This document shows, one piece after another, positions 5,023 through 43,061 of a stretch of DNA of 64,000 nt (position 1 is the stretch's first letter; each line of letters begins with the position of its first letter). The stretch comes from Gibbsiella quercinecans (lineage in GTDB: Bacteria; Pseudomonadota; Gammaproteobacteria; Enterobacterales; Enterobacteriaceae). The DNA lies in the NCBI RefSeq assembly GCF_002291425.1, contig NZ_CP014136.1, forward strand, positions 2,976,001 to 3,040,000, written 5' to 3'. Below the pieces are notes generated by a model. The model worked only from the letters and a program-made list of their open reading frames with translations, ran no database searches and was not told the origin of the DNA. Position numbers and translations under genes: made by a program.

Positions 5023-5391
5023 ATGGCAAATCAAGCAACCGGTCTAACGCGTATTATTAAGGCGGCAGGTTATTCCCGGCAGGGGTTTATTGCCGCCTGG
5101 CAAAATGAAGCGGCGTTCCGCCAGGAAACCCTCGCCGCCGTGCTCGCCATTATTTTGGCCGCCTGGCTGGACGTTGGGGCGATCGCCCGTATTTTACTGG
5201 TGGGTTCCGTGATCCTGGTGATGATCGTCGAGCTGCTTAACAGCGCAATCGAAGCGCTGGTCGATCGCGTGGGCACCGAGCACCACGTGCTTTCCGGCCG
5301 GGCAAAGGATATCGGTTCGGCGGCGGTGACGCTGGCGATCATACTGGCGCTGTTTGTTTGGGGCAGCGTGCTGTGGCAGCACTTTGCCTGA
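5023..5391 (+). CDS. dgkA: Diacylglycerol kinase DgkA
   Basis: Small trimeric inner-membrane kinase that phosphorylates diacylglycerol to phosphatidate, recycling lipid released by membrane-derived oligosaccharide synthesis. The 122 residues equal E. coli DgkA. Three membrane helices are visible, with the active-site segment ELLNSAIEALVDRVG carrying the conserved glutamates (E69, E76 in E. coli numbering). It is divergent from plsB, another phospholipid gene, and precedes lexA on the same strand. Confidence 0.97.
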   Translation: MANQATGLTRIIKAAGYSRQGFIAAWQNEAAFRQETLAAVLAIILAAWLDVGAIARILLVGSVILVMIVELLNSAIEALVDRVGTEHHVLSGRAKDIGSAAVTLAIILALFVWGSVLWQHFA

Positions 5392-5462
5392 ATAGCCGCC
5401 GCCATTAGGCTGTTTTTCGCCGGTTTTGCGCGCCTACTCCCTGATTTTTATTTATTCTGCGG

Positions 5463-5517
5463 TTCCCAATCCCCCCGCACCTGTATATACTCACAGCAAA
5501 ACTGTATAAACAAACAG
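5463..5517 (+). promoter_or_regulatory. lexA promoter with two LexA operators (SOS boxes)
   Basis: Two 16-mers of the form CTGT-N8-ACAG are present: CTGTATATACTCACAG at 5481-5496 and CTGTATAAACAAACAG at 5502-5517. A TTCCCA -35 at 5463 and TATACT -10 at 5486 are separated by 17 bases, so the first operator covers the -10. The tandem layout and spacing match the E. coli lexA promoter, giving autoregulation. Confidence 0.92.
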
Positions 5518-5525
5518 GGGGCGGG

Positions 5526-6134
5526 ATGAAAGCACTAACTACCAGGCAGCAAGAGGTCTATGACCTGATTCGCGATCATATTTCGCAGACGGGCATGCCG
5601 CCCACGCGTGCCGAGATCGCATTGCGTCTGGGGTTCCGCTCGCCGAATGCGGCTGAAGAGCACCTGAAGGCGCTGGCGCGCAAAGGGGTGATCGAGATCA
5701 TCTCCGGCGCCTCGCGCGGTATCCGCCTGCTGATGGAAGATGAAGACGGCCTGCCGCTGATTGGCCGCGTGGCCGCCGGTGAGCCGCTGCTGGCGCAGCA
5801 GCATATCGAAGGGCACTACAAGGTTGATCCTTCCCTGTTCAAACCCAACGCCGATTTCCTGCTGCGGGTAAAAGGGATGTCGATGCGCGACATCGGTATC
5901 CTTGATGGCGATCTGCTGGCGGTGCATAAAACGCAGGACGTGCGTAACGGCCAGGTCGTGGTGGCCCGTATCGAAGATGAAGTGACCGTCAAACGCCTGA
6001 AAAAACACGGCAACGTGGTTGAATTGCTGCCGGAAAACAGTGAATTCAAACCGATCGTCGTCGATCTGCGTGAGCAAAACCTCACCATTGAAGGGCTGGC
6101 CGTCGGCGTTATTCGCAACGGTGACTGGATTTAA
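5526..6134 (+). CDS. lexA: SOS repressor LexA
   Basis: Represses the SOS regulon and cleaves itself when RecA filaments form. The 202 residues equal E. coli LexA. The N-terminal winged helix ([20 protein letters not shown]) is followed by the cleavage site in VAAGEPLL (Ala84-Gly85). The catalytic Ser119 is in GMSMRDIG and Lys156 in [10 protein letters not shown]. The start ATG lies eight bases after the second SOS box, with GGGGGCGGG as ribosome binding site. dinF follows on the same strand. Confidence 0.98.
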
Positions 6135-6160
6135 CCCCCTGCGTTTCCCCCTGATGTAAA

Positions 6161-6180
6161 TCGCCCCTGTCCAGGGGCGA
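6161..6180 (+). terminator. Hairpin between lexA and dinF, possible partial terminator
   Basis: TCGCCCCT and AGGGGCGA pair around a four-base loop, followed by a broken T-rich stretch (TGCCTTTCTTGC). It may limit, not abolish, readthrough from lexA into dinF. Confidence 0.5.
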
Positions 6181-6227
6181 TGCCTTTCTTGCTTTTTCAA
6201 TACGCACTGCCACAGGAATAGGTTGCT

Positions 6228-7577
6228 ATGCGCTTGATTACCGCCTTCTTTAGTGACAACGACAAAGCGCTGTGGCGTTTGGCGTTGCCGATGATCTTTT
6301 CCAACATTACCGTGCCGTTGCTCGGTTTGGTCGATACGGCGGTGATCGGCCACCTCGACAGCCCCAGCTATCTTGGCGGCGTCGCCGTGGGTGCGATGGT
6401 CACCAGCTTCCTGTTCATGCTGTTCTTATTCCTGCGCATGAGCACTACCGGGCTGGCGGCTCAGGCGCAGGGCGCCGGCGATGCGCAGCGGCTGGCCCAG
6501 GCCTTTGTGCAGCCGTTGCTGCTGGCCGGGATTGTCGGCCTGGCGATACTGTTGCTGCGCCGGCCGCTGATCGGACTGGCGTTGCAGGTTGTCGGCGGCG
6601 ATGGCGAAGTCTTGCAGCAGGCGCGGCTCTTTTTGGATATCCGCTGGTTAAGTGCGCCGGCGGCGCTGGCCAACATGGTGCTGCTGGGGTGGCTGCTCGG
6701 CGTGCAGTACGTGCGTGCGCCGGTGCTGTTGCTGATCGCCGGCAACCTGCTGAATATTGTGCTGGATGTGTGGCTGGTGATGGGGCTTGGCTGGAATGTG
6801 CAAGGGGCTGCGCTGGCGACGGTGGTGTCCGAGTATGCCATGCTGCTGTTTGGGCTATGGCTCGCCTGGCGGGTGATGAGGCGGCGGGGCATTTCACTGC
6901 CGATCTTGCGCCAGGCCTGGCGGGGAAACCTGGGCCGTTTGCTGGCGCTGAACCGGGATATCATGCTGCGTTCCCTGCTGCTGCAGTTGTGCTTCGCCTC
7001 GTTGACCATTCTTGGCGCCCGGCTGGGCAGCGAAGTGGTGGCGGTTAACGCAGTGCTGATGAACCTGCTGACCTTTACTGCCTATGCGCTCGATGGTTTT
7101 GCCTATGCGGTGGAAGTGCACTCCGGCCATGCCTATGGCGCGCGCGACGATCGCAAGCTGCATCAGGTATGGCACGCCGCCTGCCGGCAGGCGGGCCTGG
7201 TCGCGCTGGGATTTGCGGCAATTTACGCCGTTGCTGGCCAACAGATTGTTGGCGCACTGACCTCCTTACCGGCGCTGCGTGAACTGGCAAACCACTACCT
7301 GGGCTGGCAGGTGGTGCTGCCGCTGGTCAGCGTGTGGTGCTACCTGATGGATGGCATGTTTATCGGCGCGACCCGCGGCGCGGAAATGCGTAATAGCATG
7401 GCGGTTGCCGCCGCCGGCTACGCGCTGGCGTTGCTTACTCTGCCGCTGCTCGGCAACCATGCGTTGTGGCTGGCGCTGTGCGTGTTCCAGATGCTGCGTG
7501 GCATTACGCTGGGGTGGCTTTGGCTGCGCCATAACCGGCAGGGCACCTGGTTTGCGCACGAGCGGGCCAGGGAGTAG
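6228..7577 (+). CDS. dinF: MATE-family efflux protein DinF
   Basis: Multidrug and toxin extrusion (MATE) family transporter with twelve predicted membrane helices. The 449 residues compare with 459 in E. coli. Recognisable blocks are DKALWRLALPMIFSNITVPLLG at the N-terminus (first 18 residues after the start differ), LNIVLDVWLVMGLG and ALDGFAYAVEVHSG. In E. coli it is SOS-induced as part of the lexA operon and linked to protection from oxidative stress and bile salts. Here the gap from lexA is 93 bases and contains a hairpin, so co-transcription is likely but attenuated. Confidence 0.95.
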   Translation: MRLITAFFSDNDKALWRLALPMIFSNITVPLLGLVDTAVIGHLDSPSYLGGVAVGAMVTSFLFMLFLFLRMSTTGLAAQAQGAGDAQRLAQAFVQPLLLAGIVGLAILLLRRPLIGLALQVVGGDGEVLQQARLFLDIRWLSAPAALANMVLLGWLLGVQYVRAPVLLLIAGNLLNIVLDVWLVMGLGWNVQGAALATVVSEYAMLLFGLWLAWRVMRRRGISLPILRQAWRGNLGRLLALNRDIMLRSLLLQLCFASLTILGARLGSEVVAVNAVLMNLLTFTAYALDGFAYAVEVHSGHAYGARDDRKLHQVWHAACRQAGLVALGFAAIYAVAGQQIVGALTSLPALRELANHYLGWQVVLPLVSVWCYLMDGMFIGATRGAEMRNSMAVAAAGYALALLTLPLLGNHALWLALCVFQMLRGITLGWLWLRHNRQGTWFAHERARE

Positions 7578-7868
7578 CCTCCCATTCATTGTGGTTTTTG
7601 TTAATATCATGTTACATCTTGCTGGGTAAAGAAAACCCTGGTTATCGGGTTGTTTTGTTGTTGTTTTTAACTAAAAAATCGCTTATTTATGGTGTTTATT
7701 GCTGGCTTTTATTTTTAATCCAGAATCTATAGCTAATATTAGTAATGTGGCTGGCTGATTAGGCAACGGCTTAATCCAGTGCAGATGAGGAAAATCTGTT
7801 ACTCACTTTGGTCAGTTAGGCCAGCCGGATTATCTGAAACTGACTCACTTTAGTTACGGAGAGAAATG

Positions 7869-8078
7869 ATGAACAAAGATCAAGCTGGCGGTAACTGGAA
7901 GCAGTTTAGAGGTAAGGTCAAAGAACAGTGGGGCAAGCTGACCGATGACGATATGACGGTCATCGAAGGGAAGCGCGAACAGCTGGTCGGCAAAATTCAG
8001 GAACGCTACGGCTACCAGAAAGAGCAGGCCGAAAAGGAAGTCAAATCCTGGGAAGACAGCAACAAATTCCACTGGTAA
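7869..8078 (+). CDS. yjbJ: CsbD-family stress protein YjbJ
   Basis: Small soluble CsbD-like protein of 69 residues, abundant in stressed and stationary E. coli; molecular role unknown. The sequence MNKDQAGGNWKQFRGKVKEQ and the tail EKEVKSWEDSNKFHW match E. coli YjbJ over the whole length. The second of two consecutive ATGs is chosen because it aligns with E. coli and sits seven bases after GGAG. The 291-base upstream gap from dinF is AT-rich and must hold the promoter; I see no gene in it. Confidence 0.93.
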   Translation: MNKDQAGGNWKQFRGKVKEQWGKLTDDDMTVIEGKREQLVGKIQERYGYQKEQAEKEVKSWEDSNKFHW

Positions 8079-8120
8079 CAGGCACCAGGTTTTACCTTTA
8101 CGGCAATCTAAAACGGTACA

Positions 8121-8155
8121 GGGACGTACCTGGTTATTTCCCCGCTGTACGTCCC
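8121..8155. terminator. Hairpin between convergent yjbJ and zur
   Basis: GGGACGTAC (8121-8129) and GTACGTCCC (8147-8155) are perfect inverted repeats around a 17-base loop. On the minus strand the stem is followed by TGTACCGTTTTAG, so it may end zur transcription. Confidence 0.5.
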
Positions 8156-8160
8156 GCCGG

Positions 8161-8670
8161 TTATTTCTTCTTCACTACAATGCTGTGATCGTGATCGCAA
8201 TCATGCGGATGCTTACAGGCTTCTACCTCTACGCAGTCAACGCACAGGCCGTGCGCTTCAACCACGCTGTGGCGCAGGGCAAAGCCGGACTCTTTCGCCA
8301 GCTTTTGCAGCGTTTCTTCGATGCCGTCGGTCGTGCGCTCGGTCACTTGCCCGCAGCGATCGCAGATAAACAGCGCTGAAGTATGCATCGGCTGTTCAAA
8401 GTGGTGACACAGCACATAGCTATTGGTGGACTCCACCCGGTGGATAAAGCCTTGCTCCAACAGGAAATCCAGTGCGCGGTACACCGTCGGCGGCTTGGCC
8501 TGCGGCTCGGCCACCCGTAGCAGATCCAACAGATCATAGGCGCTGATGGCACCGGGCTGTTGTGCCATCAGGCGTAACACTTCCAGCCGTTGCGGCGTCA
8601 GGCGCACATTGCGTTGCTGGCAAAGGTGCTCAGCCTGCGCGAGCAGCTTTTCCTGGTTGGTTGGGTTCAT
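8161..8670 (-). CDS. zur: Zinc uptake regulator Zur (Fur family)
   Basis: Zinc-sensing repressor of zinc uptake genes. The 169-residue protein matches E. coli Zur closely, with the winged helix RNVRLTPQRLEVLRLM and PPTVYRALDFLLEQGF. Zinc ligands lie in FICDRCG, EAHGLCVDC and the His/Cys tail CKHPHDCDHDH. I start at the ATG at 8670 (MNPTNQEKLLAQAEHLCQQ), which aligns with the E. coli protein. The frame stays open 77 codons further upstream, but that part has no family similarity. Confidence 0.95.
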   Translation of the reverse strand: MNPTNQEKLLAQAEHLCQQRNVRLTPQRLEVLRLMAQQPGAISAYDLLDLLRVAEPQAKPPTVYRALDFLLEQGFIHRVESTNSYVLCHHFEQPMHTSALFICDRCGQVTERTTDGIEETLQKLAKESGFALRHSVVEAHGLCVDCVEVEACKHPHDCDHDHSIVVKKK

Positions 8671-8901
8671 GGCAAATATCCCGGTACGTAAAAAGGCGAC
8701 TTTACCATGTTTAGGGGCAATAGCCGAGAGGTGCGCGCGTTTGCACGGGGTGAGGTTTCGCACTGCACTGGGCGCGGGTAATTTACGACACGATGACGAG
8801 TAAAAAACGGATTTATCTGGCTGTTGCAGATTCAAAAAATGGAGAATGCCAATCCAGAACGGGTAGTTGGCGATGCGCCGTTTTTGCTTGTCATAACACA
8901 T

Positions 8902-8918
8902 AGCCCGATCTTCGGGCT
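8902..8918. terminator. Hairpin after the toxin-antitoxin operon
   Basis: AGCCCGA and TCGGGCT pair around three bases, ten bases after the antitoxin stop on the minus strand. There is no clear T-run on either side, so termination strength is uncertain. Confidence 0.4.
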
Positions 8919-8928
8919 ATTTGGGGAA

Positions 8929-9246
8929 TCAGGCAAACACTACGGTCAAGCTGCCCGGTGTCCGGCGCGGCTTTCCTACCACGATTTGCACATCGCGCCC
9001 TAAGCGGGTCAGGCATTCCAGCATTTTGGCTTCACTGATGCCCCGGAACTGCCCACGCAGCATATTAGATACCTTGGGTTGCGTCATTCCCAGCAGTTTT
9101 GCAGCTTGTTCCTGTGTCAGGCGACGGCTTTTAATGATGTTGCCAATGGTGGTGGCAAGCTGGGCTTTTACCCGCATTTCCTCTGCGTCTTCTCTGCCAA
9201 TATCGGCATAAACGTTGCCGCTGCTGATTTCAATATCATGGCTCAT
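8929..9246 (-). CDS. higA: HigA-type antitoxin, XRE-family helix-turn-helix protein
   Basis: DNA-binding antitoxin that neutralises the toxin encoded just upstream and represses the operon. The helix-turn-helix is LTQEQAAKLLGMTQPKVSNML in the middle of the protein, followed by RGISEAKMLECLTRLGRDVQIVVGKP typical of this antitoxin type. The ATG at 9246 is preferred because AGAGGAG lies eight bases upstream and it begins just after the toxin stop. An alternative ATG at 9264 would overlap the toxin. Toxin-before-antitoxin order is the HigBA arrangement. It lies between zur and dusA, where E. coli has other genes. Confidence 0.85.
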   Translation of the reverse strand: MSHDIEISSGNVYADIGREDAEEMRVKAQLATTIGNIIKSRRLTQEQAAKLLGMTQPKVSNMLRGQFRGISEAKMLECLTRLGRDVQIVVGKPRRTPGSLTVVFA

Positions 9247-9247
9247 A

Positions 9248-9592
9248 TTATGCTCCTCTGGCATGGCTTTCTGCGGCTTTCAGCCGTTCACGGATTTTGT
9301 CCATATCGGGTTTCGGTGTGGCAACCCCTGATGAAGACTTTTTCTGGAATACGTGCAAAACATAGACGGCATCACCGAACTTAACGGTATACACCGCACG
9401 ATAAGTATCACTGAAAAAGTCTTCAACCACCTCAAGCGCGCCAGCGCCGCCAAACCCTTTCAGTGGCTTGGCCTGGGCATGTTTACCGCCTGCCTGCGCC
9501 AGATGCAGGGCATAGCCGAAAACATCCTGTACATCCTCGGGCAATGACTGGAGGTCTTTCTTGCTGCTGCCAACCCAATATAGTGGCTTCAT
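9248..9592 (-). CDS. higB: HigB-type toxin, RelE/ParE superfamily (Gp49-like)
   Basis: Predicted ribosome-dependent mRNA endonuclease toxin. The 114 residues show the Gp49/HigB-like pattern: MKPLYWVGSSKKDLQSLPEDV, then AKPLKGFGGAGALEVVEDF, DTYRAVYTVKFGDAVYVLHVFQKKS and the tail PKPDMDKIRERLKAAE. The first gene of a two-gene operon, it ends one base before the antitoxin ATG. A palindromic operator-like site lies 19-43 bases upstream. Family membership is seen in the sequence; mRNA cleavage is inferred from relatives. Confidence 0.85.
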   Translation of the reverse strand: MKPLYWVGSSKKDLQSLPEDVQDVFGYALHLAQAGGKHAQAKPLKGFGGAGALEVVEDFFSDTYRAVYTVKFGDAVYVLHVFQKKSSSGVATPKPDMDKIRERLKAAESHARGA

Positions 9593-9610
9593 CCGCGTTA
9601 TCCATGCGTT

Positions 9611-9635
9611 GAATTATATCCATTTGGGTATAATC
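9611..9635 (-). promoter_or_regulatory. Palindromic operator/promoter of the toxin-antitoxin operon
   Basis: On the minus strand GATTATACCC and GGATATAATTC form an imperfect inverted repeat around AAAT. TATAAT-like hexamers lie within both arms, and TTGACC at 9649-9654 could be a -35. This is the expected place for autorepression by the antitoxin-toxin complex. Confidence 0.55.
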
Positions 9636-9639
9636 TAAC

Positions 9640-9957
9640 ATGGCTAACGGTCAATGTGTAGTCAAGAACGGAGAGGCATATATTTGATTCGTTTGTGGAG
9701 ATGATACTGGCGATGTCGCAGTCAACCGGCATATTCAGTCCGTCACTTTTAGTACCATCGGCTTTGCCTCCAGGGTGAACGGTTTTCCCGATAGCGGTGA
9801 TTTTTCCCTTGGCGCCTACGGTGCGGCGGCAGCGCAATGTACCCTCTGCGCGCTGGCGCTTGCCTATGCTATAGTAAGTCAAATTCCATTCTTTTCCACA
9901 GCACCCCATCTTTGAACTGGGGGCTAAGAATGCCAAAACACCCTGAAAAATTTAAAA
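9640..9957. other. Intergenic stretch between higBA and dusA with no recognised gene
   Basis: A minus-strand frame of 112 codons (9936 to 9598) is open here, with a start-like [17 protein letters not shown], but I recognise no family. It overlaps the toxin promoter and its composition gives no clear coding signal. It may be a remnant of the DNA that brought the toxin-antitoxin pair. The dusA promoter must lie at the right end, near the A/T-rich AAAAATTTAAAAATG. Confidence 0.4.
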
Positions 9958-34839: not shown

Positions 34840-35181
34840 TCAGTGCGTTATATCGCTTTTTGACACCAGATAGCTGTTAACTTCGCTTATTGAACACTCG
34901 GTACTGGATGCATCGCTTTGCGTGATTACCTCGTAGCGTCCACCCGATTTATCATGGAAAACAAAATGATAAACCTGAGTATAGCGATCTTTTCCCTTCT
35001 TCTCCGAGGCCAGCCGGTTAATCTCCGTCTTCGATTCATCAAGATTAACAATATCGACAATCCCAGCATTCTTCATCCATGCTTCGGCCATATTCATTGG
35101 CCATGAATGGCAATCAGGAGAGGCGGCCATGGTTGATAATGGCGAGAATATAGCCAACAGAACGATGATATTTTTCTTCAT
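34840..35181 (-). CDS. Small secreted protein of unknown function
   Basis: The 113 residues start with a clear signal peptide (MKKNIIVLLAIFSPLSTMAA), leaving a periplasmic domain of about 93 residues with two cysteines (DCHSW and STECSIS) that could form a disulfide. The mature part contains AEAWMKNAGIVDIVNLDESKTEINRL and YHFVFHDKSGGRYEVITQS, suggesting a small alpha/beta fold. I do not recognise the family. It is monocistronic, on the strand opposite ssb, at the edge of an accessory block. Confidence 0.7.
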   Translation of the reverse strand: MKKNIIVLLAIFSPLSTMAASPDCHSWPMNMAEAWMKNAGIVDIVNLDESKTEINRLASEKKGKDRYTQVYHFVFHDKSGGRYEVITQSDASSTECSISEVNSYLVSKSDITH

Positions 35182-35376: not shown

Positions 35377-36180
35377 TTAGCCCAGATTCGCCAGTTCGGT
35401 GGTGCGCCGCACCGCGGCCAGAACGCTGCGCTGCAAGCCGGCGGCAAAGTCGCTGTTGTTCAGCTCGTACAGGCCGTGCATGCCCACCCCGGCGGGGGAG
35501 TTGTTGATATCCAGCAGTTGGCGGGGGTGTTTCTGGCTCAGGCGCAGCATTTCCACAGTCCCCTGCAGGTTTTCCAGTACGACCTCCGTTGCCTGGGCGC
35601 GCGGCAGCCCGGCAAGCACCCCGGCGTCGGTGAGCGATTCGATAAAGTAATAAATATAATTCGGCCCCGCTACGCCAAAGCCGGTAAAGACATCAATCAA
35701 CCGCTCCGGCAGATAGAGCACTTTGCCAAAGCCCTTGAGGAATGGGGTTACCTGCTCCTCGTGCGCATGCGCATTCAGCACCACGCCACTGTAGCCGAAG
35801 CCGGTATCGGTCAGGGTGTTGGGGATCACCCTAGCGATAGGCGTTTCTTCACCAAACAGCGCTTCCAGGCGCGCCAGCGTCACCCCGGCAATCAGGGAAA
35901 CCAGCGTAGCCCCGGGCGCCAATTGCCCCTGCAGGCGCTGTGCTACGCCGGCCAGATCATCCTGCGGGCGAATACCCAGCACCACCAACTGCGCGCTGCG
36001 TAACCCCTTATCGCCGGGCTGTGTGGCGGATAAACCGTAGCGTGCGGCCAGAATGGCGACACGCTGGGCATCAATATCCTCGAGTGAAACGGCATCAGGC
36101 GCCAGCGTGTCGGCGTTTAGCGATGCGCGCAAAATTGCCTCCGCCATTTGTCCGGCCCCGATAAAATGTACGTTAGCCAT
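35377..36180 (-). CDS. Pyrroline-5-carboxylate reductase-like protein (divergent ProC family)
   Basis: The 267 residues follow the ProC plan: N-terminal Rossmann motif VHFIGAGQMAEAILRA, LVVLGIRPQDDLAGVAQRL where ProC has a conserved V(K/R)P, IARVIPNTLTDTGFGYSGV where ProC has R.MPNTPA, and the dimer domain FGVAGPNYIYYFIESLTDAGVLAGLPRAQA with HPRQLLDINNSPAGVGMHGL. Divergence at MPNTP and at the SPGGTT loop suggests a substrate other than pyrroline-5-carboxylate, perhaps another cyclic imine. It is the last gene of an ABC importer operon, so it probably acts on the imported compound. Confidence 0.82.
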   Translation of the reverse strand: MANVHFIGAGQMAEAILRASLNADTLAPDAVSLEDIDAQRVAILAARYGLSATQPGDKGLRSAQLVVLGIRPQDDLAGVAQRLQGQLAPGATLVSLIAGVTLARLEALFGEETPIARVIPNTLTDTGFGYSGVVLNAHAHEEQVTPFLKGFGKVLYLPERLIDVFTGFGVAGPNYIYYFIESLTDAGVLAGLPRAQATEVVLENLQGTVEMLRLSQKHPRQLLDINNSPAGVGMHGLYELNNSDFAAGLQRSVLAAVRRTTELANLG

Positions 36181-36193
36181 ATTTGCTACTCCT

Positions 36194-36946
36194 TCAGATA
36201 AAGTGATAACGCCCCTGGCCGATACGCAGCGTCTGGCCTTTCAGCGCCGGGTTGGCGGTGGAAAACTCCAGCGCCGCCAGCCCGTTGGCCGTGCCCTGGC
36301 GGAAGACAAACTGCTGCTCACCAATGTTCAGCGTTTCTGCCTGCCCGGTTAACCCAAACAACGTTTGCCAGTGCGCCGCCACGCTGGCCGGCTCTGCAAC
36401 TTCAAACACGGCGCGTTGCAGGGTGATTGGGCCGGCGGGGTGCGGGCGGTCAAGCCCCCGCGCCTGCAGTGTGGCGAGCCGCTGGCGATCGCTTTCGTCC
36501 CATTGCAGGACAAACGGATAGACCACTCCCTGATAGTCGCCATCAATCGTGAAAATACGCCAACTGATCAGGTTGCCTTGCGGATCCTTGCGCTGCCCGT
36601 CGAGGATGGCGGATACGGCCAGCCCACGATCGCGCAGGGCGGCGTGGGTTTGCGCAATGTTATCGCTGCGCAAGGCAACCCGGTACAAAGCCTGGCGCTG
36701 TGGTAACAGGTGCGCCGCGTCGCGTGCGAGCAGAAAGTGTGATTGCGCTGCCGCCAGCTCTGCAGCATCGGCGATCGCCAAAAATTCAATGTAGGTTAGG
36801 CCAAAATAGCTTAGTGCATTATAGGTGCCCCAGCCGGGGTGCTTGCCACCCGCTACGGCTAACAATTGGTGCGCGGCGAAAGTCTCGATCGCCGCCTGTG
36901 GCGCGTTAACAAAGTGCACCGCGTGGTCCCAACGTAACGTTGCCAT
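36194..36946 (-). CDS. VOC superfamily (glyoxalase-like) protein
   Basis: The 250 residues begin TLRWDHAVHFVNAP and include GGKHPGWGTYNALSYFGLTYIEFLAI, the pattern of the glyoxalase-like domain whose first histidine and later glutamate are metal ligands. A second half (residues 165-250) repeats the fold with ITLQRAVFEVAEPASVAAHWQTLFGL and LAALEFS. Substrate is unknown; such proteins include dioxygenases, lyases and binding proteins. It lies 13 bases before the ProC-like gene and 52 after the binding-protein gene, clearly in the same operon. Confidence 0.8.
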   Translation of the reverse strand: MATLRWDHAVHFVNAPQAAIETFAAHQLLAVAGGKHPGWGTYNALSYFGLTYIEFLAIADAAELAAAQSHFLLARDAAHLLPQRQALYRVALRSDNIAQTHAALRDRGLAVSAILDGQRKDPQGNLISWRIFTIDGDYQGVVYPFVLQWDESDRQRLATLQARGLDRPHPAGPITLQRAVFEVAEPASVAAHWQTLFGLTGQAETLNIGEQQFVFRQGTANGLAALEFSTANPALKGQTLRIGQGRYHFI

Positions 36947-36998
36947 ACATGCCTCGCTAATCGTCTTCAGGGTTTATCAACTGCCGCCCGGCAGGCCG

Positions 36999-37844
36999 CT
37001 ATTCCCAGTCGGTGTTTACCTTAACCGCACTGGCTCCCGGCAGTTGGTACACATCCTCGTTGTACCATTTCTTGGACAGCGCCGAGAGTGTGCCGTCGTT
37101 CTTCAACGCCACCAGCACGTTATCCACGGCTTCAATCAATTTCGGATCGGTATTTTTACGGTACAGGAACACATTAGGGAATAACCCGACGGAATCAGAG
37201 GCTTTCAGGTTCAAGTTCAATGATTTGTTTAGCGCCAGCAGTGCGCCAATCGGGTAAATAGCTGCGTCATACTCGCCGGAGGCGACGGAGCGGAAGATAT
37301 CCGCCGCCGACTGTTCGCCATTGGGCTGAAGATTGATCGGTTTGGCGGCGTGCTTTTGGTTGTAGTTTTCAATCACCGTATAGCGGGCATCATTGGTGTG
37401 GATCGGCACCAATTTTTTATTGCCGTTGGCCAGATCGTCCAGGTTATGAATGCCGTTTTCATCGTTACGGACAATCAGGCGTAAATCGCTGATGCCGGAT
37501 GGTTGGTGGGAATAGTCATACTGCGCGGCACGCTCCTTGGTCAGGTAGAAATGATCCGCCGCCAGGCTATAGGCGCCGGTAGAGAGCCCGACGATCATGG
37601 CATCGCGCGAGACCGCGCTGAAATGGAATTGATAATCCGGCAAGCGTTCATCAACGATTTGCAGCAGCTCGCCGTCATAGCCGGAAAGTTTATTGTTATC
37701 ATCGATAAAGCTAAACGGAAAGCCATTGGCGTTAACCACCACTTCCACCGTTTGCGGCGCCGCGCTGCTTTGCGCTGCCCATGTGGCGCTGATACCGGCC
37801 AGTAATGCCAGCGCGGCAACGCGTAATTTTTTACTTGTAACCAT
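36999..37844 (-). CDS. ABC importer periplasmic binding protein, polar amino acid family
   Basis: A signal peptide (MVTSKKLRVAALALLAGISATWA) precedes a family 3 solute-binding fold of about 255 residues: NGFPFSFIDDNNKLSGYDGELLQIV, AVSRDAMIVGLSTGAYSLAADHFYLTKERA and ALKNDGTLSALSKKWYNEDVY. It is closest in general pattern to cystine/cysteine-type binders, but the ligand cannot be assigned. The ATG at 37844 starts the signal peptide and follows GGGGGTC; a longer reading to 37904 would overlap the upstream permease. Confidence 0.85.
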   Translation of the reverse strand: MVTSKKLRVAALALLAGISATWAAQSSAAPQTVEVVVNANGFPFSFIDDNNKLSGYDGELLQIVDERLPDYQFHFSAVSRDAMIVGLSTGAYSLAADHFYLTKERAAQYDYSHQPSGISDLRLIVRNDENGIHNLDDLANGNKKLVPIHTNDARYTVIENYNQKHAAKPINLQPNGEQSAADIFRSVASGEYDAAIYPIGALLALNKSLNLNLKASDSVGLFPNVFLYRKNTDPKLIEAVDNVLVALKNDGTLSALSKKWYNEDVYQLPGASAVKVNTDWE

Positions 37845-37876
37845 TGTGACCCCCAACGAGTGCATCATCATTATTA

Positions 37877-38590
37877 TTAAGCTGGCTGCGCATGCGTGGC
37901 CCATTTACGGCTCAAAAACCCTTCCAGGCGCCGTAGCGCCCCTGCGATAGCCAGGCACAGCAGAATGTAAACCAGCAACACCACGCAATACGCCTCCACG
38001 AAATGGAACCCACGTGCGGCGGCCATATTGGCCTTCGCCATCAAATCCACCACGGTAATGGTGTAGACCAGCGAGGTATCTTTAATCAGATCGATCACAA
38101 TGCTGGTCATGTTAGGCAGCGCCGATACCGCTGCCTGTGGCAGAATAATGCGCCGCAGCCGCGTAAAACCGGTTAACCCGACGGACCAGGCGGCCTCGCG
38201 TTGGCCTTTCTCTACCGCATTCCAGGCGGCGCGAAACGCCTCGGCGAAATAGGCGCTAAATACCACCGAAAAAGCAATGACAGCGGCTACCATCGGTGCG
38301 AGCTTGTAATGGAAGATGGGCGTGTTCGGCCCGCTAAACAGGGCGCTGGCGCCCCATGGCCAGACGTAAAACACGAAATACAGCATCACCAGCATGGGGA
38401 TTGAACGGCCGAAAGAGATAAATACCTTAACCAGATATTTCACACCCGGGGTGTTGCGAATCATCACCGATGCCAGCAATCCGCCCAGCAGTAGCGAGAA
38501 TACCAATGACAACCCAGTAATACTGAGCGTCACCGGCAGCGCGCTTAAAATAAAACCACAGTTGTTGATAATAAACTCAATGCTAAACAT
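37877..38590 (-). CDS. ABC importer permease, polar amino acid family (first of two)
   Basis: The 237 residues show about five membrane helices and the cytoplasmic EAA loop AWNAVEKGQREAAWSVGLTGFTRLRRIILPQA that contacts the ATPase. The pattern is the HisM/GltK-type permease. It pairs with the permease encoded nine bases upstream to make a heterodimeric channel. Confidence 0.9.
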   Translation of the reverse strand: MFSIEFIINNCGFILSALPVTLSITGLSLVFSLLLGGLLASVMIRNTPGVKYLVKVFISFGRSIPMLVMLYFVFYVWPWGASALFSGPNTPIFHYKLAPMVAAVIAFSVVFSAYFAEAFRAAWNAVEKGQREAAWSVGLTGFTRLRRIILPQAAVSALPNMTSIVIDLIKDTSLVYTITVVDLMAKANMAAARGFHFVEAYCVVLLVYILLCLAIAGALRRLEGFLSRKWATHAQPA

Positions 38591-38599
38591 GCCGGTGGT

Positions 38600-39295
38600 T
38601 TACTCCAATAAATAGCGATAGCGTTTTTCTATCTGCTGCGTCAGAAAATAAATGGCAACGTTCAGTGCCCAATAAATAATAATTACGCTGATAAATGCAG
38701 AGACTTGTTTAGCGCCGTAGCTGTTTTGCGCTATTTTTTGCGCCCGGCCGAAGATATCTACAATGCCGATAATATTGACCAGCGACGTCATCTTAATCAG
38801 GTTGATTAATAAATTGCCGAAGTTAGGCAACGCGATAATTAACCCTTGTGGGAAGATAATACGCAGCACGCCGATCGGGTAGGGGATATTCAAACTTTGG
38901 ATCGCCTCTTTTTGCCCCCGATCCACGGCGTTCCAGGCGGAGCGCAGCATTTCTGCAAAGTACGGGCTCATACCCACCGCGATGGACAACACGGCGAAAG
39001 TGGTGTCGCTGATGCTGCGCGGCTCAAACCCGGCGGCGTTCAACAGCAGCTTGCCGCCATAGAAAAACAATAAAATCAGCAGCGCCAGCGGCGCACCGCG
39101 CATGATATCGGTATACGCCTTGGCAAATTTGCGCAGCCACCGGCGTTTGTTGAATTGCAATATCGCGGTAGCCAGGCCAAGAGCCAGGCCAATCACCAGA
39201 GAAGCGCCGGTAATGCCCAAGGTAATCGGCAGGTTCTCAAGCAGTTTTGGGACAATCTGGTACAGATCATCAAGGCTGAATAATGACGTGTTCAT
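38600..39295 (-). CDS. ABC importer permease, polar amino acid family (second of two)
   Basis: The 231 residues contain LPITLGITGASLVIGLALGLATAIL in the first helix region, YTDIMRGAPLALLILLFFYGG, and the EAA loop AWNAVDRGQKEAIQSLNIPYPIGVLRIIFPQG. It differs from its partner in the outer helices, as expected for a heterodimer. It lies nine bases after the ATPase gene. Confidence 0.9.
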   Translation of the reverse strand: MNTSLFSLDDLYQIVPKLLENLPITLGITGASLVIGLALGLATAILQFNKRRWLRKFAKAYTDIMRGAPLALLILLFFYGGKLLLNAAGFEPRSISDTTFAVLSIAVGMSPYFAEMLRSAWNAVDRGQKEAIQSLNIPYPIGVLRIIFPQGLIIALPNFGNLLINLIKMTSLVNIIGIVDIFGRAQKIAQNSYGAKQVSAFISVIIIYWALNVAIYFLTQQIEKRYRYLLE

Positions 39296-39304
39296 CGCGG
39301 CGCC

Positions 39305-40045
39305 TCAACGCTGGAACTGTAGGCGGGCGAGAAACGCGTTGGTGCGGGCCTGCTTGGCCGCCGCAAAAATTTGTTCTGGTGGCCCCTGCTCAATGATTTT
39401 CCCCTCTTCCATAAAAATCACGCGGTCCGCAACCTGGCGGGCAAACGCCATCTCATGGGTAACGATAATCATGGTTTGCCCTTCCGCGGCGATCTCCTGA
39501 ATCAGGCTCAATACTTCGCCTACTTTTTCAGGATCGAGCGCGGAGGTTGGCTCATCAAGCAACAACAATGCGGGGTTCATTGCCAGCGCGCGGGCGATGC
39601 CAACGCGTTGCTTTTGCCCGCCGGATAGGCTATTGGGATAGTGATCTTTCCTGTTCCATAACCCCACGCGTGTGAGCAGGCGTTCGGCCAGTTTAAGGGC
39701 GTCACGGCGCGGCATCTTTTTCGCGTAAATCAAACCTTCCGTGATATTTTCCAGCGCCGTACGGTTATGGAATAAATTCCAGGATTGAAATACCATCGCA
39801 GTTTTCGCCCGCAGCCGATTAATTTCTTTTTTATTAGCACTGGCGCAGTTTACCTGCACATCGTTAATCTTGATGGTGCCGCCATCGGCGGGATCTAAAA
39901 AATTAAGGCTGCGCAACAGGGTTGTTTTACCAGAGCCGCTGGGGCCTATAATGCAAATGACCTCTCCTTGGTTAATATCCAGGGATACGCCTTTTAATAT
40001 TTTTTCGTCTGAATAATGCTTGATAATATCCCTGATTATTACCAT
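39305..40045 (-). CDS. ABC importer ATPase, polar amino acid family
   Basis: The 246 residues carry Walker A GPSGSGKTTLLRSLN near residue 34, the Q-loop in AKTAMVFQSWNLF, signature LSGGQKQRVGIARAL, Walker [15 protein letters not shown] and the switch histidine in IIVTHEMAFARQV. It is the first gene of the operon. The ATG at 40045 is chosen; a GTG three codons upstream is possible. It energises the two downstream permeases. Confidence 0.9.
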   Translation of the reverse strand: MVIIRDIIKHYSDEKILKGVSLDINQGEVICIIGPSGSGKTTLLRSLNFLDPADGGTIKINDVQVNCASANKKEINRLRAKTAMVFQSWNLFHNRTALENITEGLIYAKKMPRRDALKLAERLLTRVGLWNRKDHYPNSLSGGQKQRVGIARALAMNPALLLLDEPTSALDPEKVGEVLSLIQEIAAEGQTMIIVTHEMAFARQVADRVIFMEEGKIIEQGPPEQIFAAAKQARTNAFLARLQFQR

Positions 40046-40054
40046 TGCCAACAC

Positions 40055-40280
40055 ACCATAAAGATCAACAAGTTCTGAAAATATAATGTTCTTATGAGAT
40101 ATTTTTGCAACTTACAAAATGTTATATTTATTTGACATATATGGTATATACGCGGTTGTTAATTTATTTTAAATTTATGTTGCTTAGTCGTTGAGTTTTT
40201 ATCGTGGGATATTTGAGCCGTGCTTCCGCCACGTGAATTATCGGGCTCTGCCTGGCAATAGATCAGCCTGCCGTCGGGGC
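40055..40280 (-). promoter_or_regulatory. Promoter region of the ABC/VOC/ProC-like operon
   Basis: This AT-rich stretch upstream of the ATPase gene holds no gene. On the minus strand, TTGCAA followed after about 18 bases by TTATAT could be the promoter nearest the gene. A dyad ATATATGGTATATA lies further upstream (near 40137-40152) and could be an operator. No regulator gene is adjacent. Confidence 0.4.
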
Positions 40281-40305
40281 AAAAGGCCCAGAGTAGAGTG
40301 GGCCT
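40281..40305 (-). terminator. Terminator after the galactan importer ATPase gene
   Basis: On the minus strand AGGCCCA and TGGGCCT pair around eight bases and are followed by TTT, giving four T residues in all. It lies 57 bases after the ganK stop. Confidence 0.65.
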
Positions 40306-40361
40306 ATGTTTAATAGACGTTCCCCTCACCAACGCGTTAGCCTGATGAGTTTGGCCTTGCG

Positions 40362-41471
40362 TTAATGCTCATCTGGCAGCGGAATATCCGCACTAATTCG
40401 TACCCCATGCTTATCGAAGATCATGCAGTGCCTGGCGGCAAAGGCCACGTTAATTTTTTGCCAAGGGCGGAAACGCACGTCACCGGGCAATAATACTTTC
40501 ACGTTGTCATGGCCATAGCATTGGCCGAACAGATAGGTGTTGTTTCCCAGCCGTTCCACCACTTCACACTGGAACTCCATGCCCGGCCCGGTTGTGGCTT
40601 CCGTCGACAGGTGCTCTGGGCGAATCCCCAGCGTGATGTCCTCACCGGCTTTTAACGGTGTGGTATCTATCGCCAGGGTGACGGTATGATCTTGCGCCAG
40701 GCTGACGCTGAGTTCACCCGGCTGCCAGGCGGTTACCGTCGCCGGCAGCAAGTTCATTTTGGGGGAACCGATAAAGCCGGCGACGAATTTGTTTATCGGG
40801 TTGTAGTATAGGCTCATCGGTGAGCCCATTTGCTCAACCTGGCCGTAGTTCATAACCACGATTTTATCGGCAAGCGTCATTGCTTCAACCTGATCGTGGG
40901 TGACATACACCATGGTGGTTTTCATTTCCTGATGCAGTTTTGCGATATGCAGGCGCATTTCAACGCGCAATTCGGCATCCAGATTGGATAGCGGTTCATC
41001 AAACATAAATACGCGGGGATTGCGCACAATCGCGCGCCCAATAGCGACGCGTTGCCGCTGGCCGCCGGAAAGCTGCTTCGGTTTTCTGTCCAGCAACTGC
41101 GACAGTTGCAAGGTTTTAGCCACCATTTCAACCTGGTGGCGTATTTCTTCTTTGGGGACTTTATTCACCTTCAACCCATAGCCCATGTTTTCTGCCACCG
41201 TCATATGCGGGTACAGCGCATAGGATTGAAACACCATAGCTACCCCACGGTGCGCCGGAGCGACATCGTTCATCACTTCATCGCCAATCAATACTTCACC
41301 ACCACTGACCTCTTCCAATCCGGCAATCATCCGCAGCAGCGTAGATTTACCGCAGCCCGATGGGCCGACAAATACCGCAAATTCGCCATTTTCAATATAA
41401 AGATCAACGTTATGTAGCGTTACCGTATTGTCAAACCGCTTAGTGACATTTCTCAGTCGTATGCTGGACAT
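40362..41471 (-). CDS. ganK: Galactan oligosaccharide ABC importer ATPase (MalK/MsmX type)
   Basis: The 369 residues have Walker A VGPSGCGKSTLLRM near residue 38, Q-loop in AMVFQSYALYPHMTVAENMGYGLKV, signature LSGGQRQRVAIGRAI, Walker B VFMFDEPLSNLD and a C-terminal TOBE domain from about residue 240. It is a MalK/UgpC-type ATPase for sugar importers. It is transcribed divergently from ganEFG, as the Dickeya gan ATPase. The start is the ATG at 41471 after GAGGAGC; the preceding in-frame TTG is unlikely. It would bind the EAA loops of GanF and GanG. Confidence 0.88.
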   Translation of the reverse strand: MSSIRLRNVTKRFDNTVTLHNVDLYIENGEFAVFVGPSGCGKSTLLRMIAGLEEVSGGEVLIGDEVMNDVAPAHRGVAMVFQSYALYPHMTVAENMGYGLKVNKVPKEEIRHQVEMVAKTLQLSQLLDRKPKQLSGGQRQRVAIGRAIVRNPRVFMFDEPLSNLDAELRVEMRLHIAKLHQEMKTTMVYVTHDQVEAMTLADKIVVMNYGQVEQMGSPMSLYYNPINKFVAGFIGSPKMNLLPATVTAWQPGELSVSLAQDHTVTLAIDTTPLKAGEDITLGIRPEHLSTEATTGPGMEFQCEVVERLGNNTYLFGQCYGHDNVKVLLPGDVRFRPWQKINVAFAARHCMIFDKHGVRISADIPLPDEH

Positions 41472-41536
41472 CAACGCTCCTCGAACTAGTTAGCCGCTGT
41501 TTGCCGTTGGGTTTCTTAGCGTGCTGAAATGATTTT

Positions 41537-41552
41537 TGTATTACGTATAACA
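41537..41552. promoter_or_regulatory. Candidate GanR operator upstream of ganK
   Basis: TGTATTACGTATAACA reads TGT-NN-TACGTA-NN-ACA, a dyad. The segment TTTGTATTACGT (41535-41546) is identical to 12 bases upstream of the porin gene ganL (50549-50560). It is 66 bases before the ganK start. Confidence 0.55.
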
Positions 41553-41640
41553 TTCCAGAAAAGCGATGCTCAACAGCACTGAATTCATGTATTGACTATA
41601 ACTTCCCGTGTTTTTGCGCCCTATCGTGATGTTTCATTTC

Positions 41641-41656
41641 TGTAGCCATGATCACA
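41641..41656. promoter_or_regulatory. Candidate CRP site between ganK and ganE
   Basis: TGTAGCCATGATCACA matches TGTGA-N6-TCACA at nine of ten positions. Its central place between the divergent genes would let it act on both. The rest of the 41472-41828 gap shows no gene. Confidence 0.6.
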
Positions 41657-41798
41657 CAATGAGCAGTTTTTTGTAGTTTTATTCCTGCCTGCAGCGTAGC
41701 GTATAACAAAATGACGCGGCCAGAGGGAATGGCATGAAATCAAGGTATAGCAACAATTCCTGGGCGTCTAAAAACGGTGATGCACAATAATAATCATT

Positions 41799-41818
41799 AA
41801 ATTGTTATACCTTCACAT
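41799..41818. promoter_or_regulatory. Candidate GanR operator at the ganE start
   Basis: AAATTGTTATACCTTCACAT in reverse complement has TGTGA-N4-ATAACAATT, the layout of the E. coli lac operator. It shares TTGT-NN-TAC-N-TTCACATG with the site before ganL. It ends about ten bases before the ganE ATG, so binding would block transcription or translation start. Confidence 0.62.
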
Positions 41819-41828
41819 GAGGTTGATA

Positions 41829-43061
41829 ATGAAAAAGAACATACTTGCTGCACTTATCCTCTCTGGCCTGGCCGTTGGGCAGATAATGAGTCTGCCGGCG
41901 CATGCCGCGCAACAGCTCAATGTCTGGGAAGACATCAAAAAATCCGTCGGCATCCAAGATGCGATTAGCGACTTTGAAAAACAGTACAACGTAAAAGTTA
42001 ACGTACAAGAGATGCCTTATGCACAACAGTTGGAAAAGCTACGCCTGGATGGCCCGGCAGGGATTGGCCCGGACGTGTTGGTTATCCCTAATGATCAGTT
42101 GGGCGGGGCCGTTGTTCAGGGGTTATTGGCGCCGTTGGATGTTGAAAAAACCAAGATGGATGGATTCACGCCGGCAGCGGTGAAGGCGTTCCGTATGGAC
42201 AATACGTTGTACGGCGTGCCGAAAGCGGTGGAAACGCTGGTGCTGATTTACAACAAAGACCTGATTGAACACCCGCTAAGCAACCTGCAGGAATGGTACG
42301 ACTTCTCTAAAAAGCAGCGAGAACAGGATAAATACGGTTTGCTGGCCAAGTTTGACCAGATTTATTACAGCTGGGGTGTGATTGCCCCCATGGGCGGCTA
42401 TATCTTTGGCGACAACGGCAAGGGCGGGCTTAATCCGCAGGATGTGGGGTTAAATAAACCCGGCGTGGTTGAAGCCGTGACTTTCCTGAAGAAATTCTAT
42501 GCCGATGGCGTCTTCCCTGCCGGGATCATCGGCGATAACGGCCTGAATGCCATTGACTCATTATTTACCGAGAAAAAAGCCGCCGCGGTGATTAACGGCC
42601 CCTGGGCATTCCAGCCTTATGAAGCCGCCGGTATTAATTACGGCGTGGCGCCTATGCCCAATTTGCCCGATGGCAAACCGATGGGCTCTTTCCTTGGCGT
42701 GAAAGGCTATGTCGTTTCTACCTGGAGCAAAGATAAACAGCTGGCGCAGCGGTTTATCGAGTTTATTAACCAGCCGCAGTATGTGAAAGCCCGCTATATC
42801 GCGACGCGCGAAATCCCGCCGCTGACGGCGATGATGAATGATCCGCTGATCAAGAATGATGAAAAGGCCAACGCGGTGGCGGTGCAATCAACGCGCGCGG
42901 CCGCGATGCCCGGCATTCCGGAAATGGGGGAGGTCTGGGGGCCGGCCAATGCGGCGCTGGAACTTAGCCTGACCGGTAAGCAGGCGCCGAAAGACGCGCT
43001 TGATAACGCAGAAAAACAGATCAATATGCAAATTGAAGCCATGCAGGCCAGCAATCAGTAA
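41829..43061 (+). CDS. ganE: Galactan oligosaccharide-binding protein (MalE type)
   Basis: Periplasmic receptor of the importer. The signal peptide MKKNILAALILSGLAVGQIM ends near AHA at residue 26. The mature protein follows the MalE fold: LNVWEDIKKSVGIQDAISDFEKQYNVKVNV, AGIGPDVLVIPNDQLGGAVVQGLLAPL, GVPKAVETLVLIYNKDLI and AAAVINGPWAFQ. The 410 residues exceed E. coli MalE (396) slightly. B. subtilis calls its equivalent GanS. The ATG at 41829 starts the signal peptide and follows GAGG. Confidence 0.88.
   Translation: MKKNILAALILSGLAVGQIMSLPAHAAQQLNVWEDIKKSVGIQDAISDFEKQYNVKVNVQEMPYAQQLEKLRLDGPAGIGPDVLVIPNDQLGGAVVQGLLAPLDVEKTKMDGFTPAAVKAFRMDNTLYGVPKAVETLVLIYNKDLIEHPLSNLQEWYDFSKKQREQDKYGLLAKFDQIYYSWGVIAPMGGYIFGDNGKGGLNPQDVGLNKPGVVEAVTFLKKFYADGVFPAGIIGDNGLNAIDSLFTEKKAAAVINGPWAFQPYEAAGINYGVAPMPNLPDGKPMGSFLGVKGYVVSTWSKDKQLAQRFIEFINQPQYVKARYIATREIPPLTAMMNDPLIKNDEKANAVAVQSTRAAAMPGIPEMGEVWGPANAALELSLTGKQAPKDALDNAEKQINMQIEAMQASNQ

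Follow-up and report, generated by a model that had tools for sequence, protein, structure and literature searches.

A ProC-like and Glyoxalase_3 enzyme pair in a candidate amino acid uptake and catabolism operon of Gibbsiella quercinecans

The Gibbsiella quercinecans genome holds a six-gene operon in which genes for an amino acid importer are followed by genes for a VOC protein and a ProC-like protein, which raises a key question: are uptake and processing of one compound joined here, and if so, which compound is it? The window analysed is a stretch of 64,000 nucleotides of contig NZ_CP014136.1 and lies in a single-contig genome of 5.55 Mb, in which housekeeping ProC is encoded elsewhere. Inspection of the window revealed six intact open reading frames (ORFs) that run on the minus strand from position 40045 to 35377 (Table 1), in the order and with the spacing described by an earlier sequence-only reading. 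The ATPase gene starts with the ATG at 40045, whereas the mechanically defined ORF begins with a GTG at 40054. The intergenic gaps are 9, 9, ~32 (with the binding protein counted from its likely signal-peptide Met), 52 and 13 bases. The region upstream of the operon contained no MetJ box, the matches of a promoter scan in it were at chance level, and its alignment with Klebsiella-type loci revealed no clear regulator site in common.

Table 1 Features of the operon and its upstream region (window positions)
Feature	Position	Strand	Domains and closest models
ABC importer ATPase, PAAT type	39305-40045	-	ABC_tran; closest NCBIfam model TcyN (L-cystine importer ATPase), below cut-off
ABC importer permease 1	38600-39295	-	BPD_transp_1; HEQRo_perm_3TM above cut-off
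ABC importer permease 2	37877-38590	-	BPD_transp_1; HEQRo_perm_3TM above cut-off; best model cystine permease, below cut-off
Periplasmic binding protein	36999-37904	-	SBP_bac_3; likely signal-peptide Met at 37844
VOC metalloenzyme candidate	36194-36946	-	Glyoxalase_3 PF13468
ProC-like dehydrogenase/reductase, distinct clade	35377-36180	-	P5CR_dimer + F420_oxidored
Upstream region, between operon and UgpC/MalK-like neighbour gene	40046-40361	-	

The binding protein, the pair of HEQRo_perm_3TM permeases and the matching ATPase place the importer in the PAAT family. Its components stay below the curated cystine cut-offs of the FliY and TcyJ-TcyN models (316.9 vs 406 bits for the ATPase, 124.4 vs 300 for the permease and 64.5 vs 312 for the binding protein), and the ATPase is 73-76% identical to that of the Raoultella, Klebsiella and Kosakonia operons. 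The nearest solved relatives of the binding protein are Lmo2349 and YtmK. The carboxylate-Arg motif TKER is kept in nine window-type binding proteins, which carry DAAIYP in place of the DAVVTD of the amino-acid-binding relative AncQR, so that the Asp after DAVV is replaced. In many members, the Asp at this position binds the alpha-ammonium group. A ligand lacking a free primary amine would be in keeping with its loss; this is a weak hint, because YtmK and Lmo2349 lack that Asp as well.

Another important question is whether the ProC-like protein could be housekeeping ProC. It carries Rossmann and P5CR dimerisation domains (PF03807, PF14748), its AF2 model matches P5CR structures, best of all Medicago P5CR (5bse), and its identity to P5C reductases is ~30%. 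Its score of 186.3 bits is nevertheless below the curated TIGR00112 cut-off of 196.75; members of its clade reach ~170-205 bits, some of those from Bacilli slightly exceeding the cut-off. A scan with the family alignment over one genome per species recovered 117 relatives in Enterobacterales and Bacilli, and 80 loci were kept. In a tree of 33 clade members and 25 other ProC-family proteins, most of which came from clade-carrying genomes, the 33 members all fell on one side of a branch with an SH-aLRT of 100 and a length of ~4 changes per column. Moreover, at least one further, better-scoring ProC above the TIGR00112 cut-off was present in 18/18 genomes tested. On sequence grounds, the protein is not housekeeping ProC, and the tree places it outside the housekeeping clade, as the sequence-only reading had supposed.

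The substrate pocket was compared with those of characterized enzymes. The substrate residues of E. coli ProC are Met119, Gly173, Ser174, Val229, Ser231, Thr235 and Thr236 (PMC12899673); the carboxylate is held by Thr238 in human PYCR1, whose thiazolidine complexes show an additional contact of Thr238 to the amine and one of Ser233 to the carboxylate (PMC7939384). In 72/72 clade members (window numbering), Met119 of ProC is replaced by Ile119, Gly173 by Val/Ile170, Ser174 by Ala/Cys171, Val229 by Asn226, Thr235 by Val232 and Thr236 by Gly233, with Ser228 (ProC Ser231) being the sole substrate-contact residue retained, again in 72/72. The Met, the Gly and the second Thr are kept in 27/27 comparison ProC proteins. 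Four features, Asn174, Arg220, Asn204 and the string PNTLTDT, are invariant among clade members and rare or lacking elsewhere, and the motif departures noticed earlier in the window protein (PNTLTD, and GVG for GTT) proved to be real and fixed across the clade. The protein thus appears clearly to be a repurposed relative of the proline-making enzyme, with its substrate pocket rebuilt. Asp35, which is present in 72/72 clade members, lies just after strand beta-2 in the structure model. In Rossmann enzymes, an Asp at the end of beta-2 generally favours NAD over NADP, and by this rule, Asp35 suggests that the clade prefers NAD. Such a preference would suit oxidation in a catabolic route, and we judge NAD+-dependent oxidation likelier than the reduction that had been proposed from the window alone.

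The VOC protein matches PF13468 with 132.2 bits (gathering score 25.1; E 2.7e-38), and its AlphaFold2 model (pLDDT 96.4) displays the VOC fold. Among solved structures, only the S. aureus protein 3p8a is close to it (Z 29.6). At Z 15-17, HPPD and extradiol dioxygenases share the fold; the conserved residues of the VOC protein lie mostly in its N-terminal half, in contrast to the metal site in the C-terminal half of those enzymes. D7, H8, H36, G40, E54, R119, F145 and H169 are invariant in 51/51 VOC relatives of three subtypes. The protein is likely a metal enzyme, since H8 and E54 occupy what we take to be the usual VOC metal positions. Our literature search returned no function for PF13468.

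These data raise the further question of whether the genes are associated by chance or form a module. Among 89 loci, which were picked by ProC-like similarity and include many close kin within Paenibacillus, so that the fractions are not independent counts, a PF13468 gene lies no more than 9 kb from the ProC-like gene in 82 and is its immediate same-strand neighbour in 61, and 86 loci have importer genes (MetNIQ 46, LIV 21, Dpp 10, PAAT 9, with four Klebsiella loci counted as PAAT, not as MetNIQ, as their MetNIQ genes form a second, divergent operon; the script had returned MetNIQ 50 and PAAT 5). The copy at the ProC-like locus is the sole strong PF13468 match in 10/11 genomes searched (those ten being of 3.4-8.1 Mb), and the eleventh carries a solitary ProC-like gene and no strong PF13468 match. 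A search of Enterobacterales genomes with one VOC protein was almost empty, the sample being thin, and it was the ProC-like alignment scan that revealed the relatives. Judged by its recurrence in more than 80 related loci, the association of the ProC-like gene, the VOC gene and the importer is not due to chance.

The ProC-like tree displays at least four changes of importer class (PAAT, LIV, Dpp, MetNIQ). The enzyme pair is kept together while the importer class changes, and the enzymes are thus the stable part of the system and the importer its exchangeable part; comparison of the loci shows the VOC and ProC-like proteins as a conserved two-enzyme core, to which importers of four or more classes have become joined in the course of evolution. 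Hence, the two enzyme genes do stay with transporter genes in relatives, and the main interpretation of the sequence-only reading, linked uptake and processing, is upheld; its enterobacterial scope was too narrow, since the system is also found in Bacilli and therefore in two phyla. The module is well supported, and its substrate is what we infer below.

Pieces of the Raoultella-type operon were also identified on Klebsiella, Enterobacter and E. coli plasmids and on one E. coli chromosome. The K. quasipneumoniae plasmid piece (1894 bases, 87% identical) begins inside the binding-protein gene, spans the PF14196 and VOC genes and breaks off after the first codons of the ProC-like gene. That the VOC gene belongs, on the plasmids of Klebsiella and E. 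coli, to an Amadori-type (SIS/PfkB) operon was considered and rejected, because these plasmids hold an operon fragment that ends inside the binding-protein and ProC-like genes. The sugar genes are thus a chance junction outside the system, and such truncated pieces account for isolated VOC matches.

Which compound, then, is taken up? The window operon comprises importer, VOC and ProC-like genes only, with M20 homologues elsewhere in the Gibbsiella genome; the loci of relatives carry further genes. An M20 aminoacylase gene lies near the ProC-like gene in Bacilli and LIV loci, and an aminothiazoline-carboxylate-hydrolase-like gene (PF14196) occurs in 7/9 PAAT loci and is missing in the window and in Phytobacter. 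The breadth of the PF14196 family weakens the hydrolase reading of the copies at these loci, and a literature search on ATC hydrolase clusters returned no function. Other neighbours encode PLP enzymes of Cys/Met metabolism (Cys/Met lyase), MetE-like and URO-D-like proteins, RidA, GntR regulators and, at some loci, a second ProC.

One additional piece of evidence was provided by Rfam scans of 29 Bacilli loci, six of which (L076, L090, L095, L098, L101 and L084) have SAM riboswitches. In Amphibacillus, Natronobacillus and Bacillus sp. V3-13, the riboswitch is located upstream of the gene string, and in Paraliobacillus, it is close by. At L076, L090, L095 and L098, it precedes Cys/Met PLP and MetE-like genes, and the importer, ProC-like and VOC genes come next on the same strand; at L101, two other genes stand between, and at L084, an inserted TnpB-type gene and a truncated MetQ precede the ProC-like and VOC genes. 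The Cys/Met PLP and MetE-like genes are separated from the importer genes by ~300-700 bases at the riboswitch loci, and the riboswitch may control those genes alone; at L076, no terminator-like site was found on the coding strand between the two parts, and the gap contained no second riboswitch or T-box. Sulfur amino acids are suggested by the accessory genes and by the SAM riboswitches present at a part of the Bacilli loci, and likewise by the importers, with cystine as the nearest model in the window and MetNIQ in Bacilli.

We therefore favour, tentatively and with rather less than even confidence, a role of the operon in the uptake and catabolism of a cyclic or N-substituted amino-acid-like compound, most likely one containing sulfur (a thiazolidine- or thiazoline-carboxylate or a homocysteine analogue). 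The importer would take in such a compound, for example, the adduct of cysteine and an aldehyde, and the ProC-like enzyme, with NAD+, would oxidise the C-N bond, in the ring or in a secondary amine, to give an imine. The VOC enzyme, with the PF14196 hydrolase where present, would open the ring or rearrange the oxidised product, and the M20 aminoacylase, in genomes having one, would remove an N-acyl group and release free cysteine or homocysteine for use. That these steps make up a widespread new salvage pathway, in which a ProC-fold NAD+ dehydrogenase for a thiazolidine-type amino acid acts with a Glyoxalase_3 metalloenzyme, is a more doubtful proposition, with perhaps a third of our belief behind it. 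Parts of the chemistry have precedents: E. coli ProC oxidises thioproline (PMC12899673), and bacteria convert thioproline to N-formylcysteine (PMC9814826). Among the cyclic imine, opine-like and thiazolidine candidates suggested by the sequence-only reading, the PF14196 neighbours, the M20 aminoacylase and the sulfur-amino-acid genes would favour a compound of the thiazolidine or thiazoline type. Against the thiazolidine reading counts the loss in the clade of the residue equivalent to PYCR1 Thr238, which contacts thiazolidine-4-carboxylate; the substrate thus cannot be bound just as thioproline is in PYCR1. A simple thiazolidine leaves the URO-D-like genes and the LIV and Dpp importers unexplained.

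The same module could instead handle a substrate without sulfur, such as a plant imino acid, an opine-like N-carboxyalkyl amino acid or another cyclic or N-alkylated amino acid, with the ProC-like enzyme oxidising the C-N bond and the VOC and M20 proteins finishing the breakdown. Many of the hosts live in association with plants (Pantoea, Kosakonia, Dickeya, Pectobacterium, Brenneria, Lonsdalea, Rahnella), LIV and Dpp importers have no sulfur specificity, and a second carboxylate could be bound by Arg220, an additional invariant residue close to the substrate loop. We regard this as unlikely, if worth serious attention, as it leaves the sulfur-amino-acid genes, the SAM riboswitches and the PF14196 neighbours unexplained. 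Detoxification or damage repair, in which the pair would clear a harmful adduct formed between an amino acid and an aldehyde or dicarbonyl, the VOC protein serving as an isomerase in the manner of a glyoxalase and the ProC-like protein reducing or oxidising an imine, would agree with the invariant H8/E54 pair of this VOC family and with RidA, an imine hydrolase, whose gene follows the ProC-like gene in several LIV loci; we consider it improbable, because a dedicated importer in 86/89 loci argues for nutrient capture and not for internal repair. A duplicate P5C reductase feeding or sparing proline synthesis would account for the overall fold and the ~30% identity and is scarcely credible given the separate clade, the normal ProC in every genome tested and the replacement of every substrate-contact residue but one Ser in all members. 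Equally hard to credit is an importer of an ordinary amino acid behind which the VOC and ProC-like genes are carried as downstream passengers: the window importer by itself does resemble a standard PAAT system, but the enzyme pair stays joined through the importer-class changes.

The sulfur-compound reading, if true, would give a first role to the ProC-fold clade and the Glyoxalase_3 group alike and may reveal how plant-associated and gut bacteria regain sulfur from cysteine-aldehyde adducts or related compounds. The annotation of the clade as P5C reductase is probably wrong in at least 100 genomes, since the proline pocket is, by sequence, lost uniformly across two phyla. The fixed pairing gives the Glyoxalase_3 family a testable partner, and the importer swaps delimit a compact gene set for a substrate search by a small ligand screen.

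How does the module compare with known systems? The literature searched contained no published description of this combination of importer, VOC and ProC-like genes. The mlp clusters, which contain homologs of corrinoid (SCMT, URO-D-type) methyltransferases (PMC10418091), have a URO-D-like protein and a methyl-sulfur theme in common with it; as a parent system they were rejected, the main text of PMC10418091 containing no VOC, MetQ, M20, riboswitch or Paenibacillus. The oxidation of thioproline to N-formylcysteine by ProC or proline dehydrogenase (Deutch; Mackenzie and Harris, cited in PMC9814826 and PMC12899673) resembles the proposed ring oxidation, ring opening and N-acyl removal that would yield cysteine; in the available parts of these papers, it is a reaction of proline enzymes with no dedicated gene set named, whereas the genes here are dedicated and their substrate is putative. 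Housekeeping ProC/PYCR1 (TIGR00112, EC 1.5.1.2) has the Rossmann and P5CR dimer fold in common with the ProC-like protein at ~30% identity, but the latter differs in its separate clade, the replacement of Met119, Gly173, Ser174, Val229, Thr235 and Thr236, Asp35 and the TIGR00112 score below the cut-off. The uncharacterised S. aureus PF13468 protein 3p8a matches the VOC fold over the whole length at 20% identity, with the H8, H36 and E54 positions conserved, but lacks the H169 stretch. Among importers, the closest to the window binding protein are those for cystine and S-modified cysteine of the Bacillus YtmK type, with Lmo2349 and YtmK as its nearest relatives. YtmK-type salvage operons of Bacillus join uptake to processing enzymes, including flavin monooxygenases. 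The window operon and its relatives likewise combine uptake with processing enzymes, including an M20 deacylase in relatives, but have the ProC-like and VOC core in place of the flavin monooxygenases. The system would thus be of a recognisable kind, yet undescribed: a catabolic importer operon around a repurposed ProC clade.

Between ssb and the operon lies the gene of a small protein, and a separate sugar-type importer adjoins the operon in the window.

Coordinates of features in the window and at loci of relatives (L numbers)
Feature	Location	Strand	Remark
Small protein, 113 residues, apparently secreted	window 34840-35181	-	no Pfam match
UgpC/MalK-like ATPase gene and divergent SBP_bac_8 binding-protein gene	window 40362-43061		
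SAM riboswitch/TnpB-type gene and putative Cas-like ORFs	L084:548-2338 and 5163-9908		
Klebsiella pneumoniae segment	L007:3643-8756		
Extra ProC-family gene	L034:9140-9961		also L039, L040
Partial PAAT operon	L006:6943-8835		also L009

Among the relatives, some Dpp-type loci have an additional ProC-family gene between the VOC and ProC-like genes; the protein it encodes shows the usual SPGGTT motif. At L084, the SAM riboswitch is followed by an inserted TnpB-type gene and then MetQ, and putative Cas9-like and Cas1/Cas2-like ORFs, assigned by eye, lie directly beyond the VOC gene. The K. pneumoniae segment retains the window-type VOC gene alone, near a MetNIQ importer, an isopenicillin-N-synthase-like oxygenase and a nitronate monooxygenase; it lacks the ProC-like and PAAT genes, both of which are present at the K. 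oxytoca locus L026.

Partial PAAT operons were also found on plasmids (L006, L009 and the E. coli hits H41-H45), comprising, in order, the end of the binding protein, the PF14196 (aminothiazoline-carboxylate-hydrolase-like) gene, VOC and the ProC-like start. In L006, an IS26 transposase gene is situated ~0.5 kb ahead of the fragment, which shows 87% identity to the Raoultella operon.
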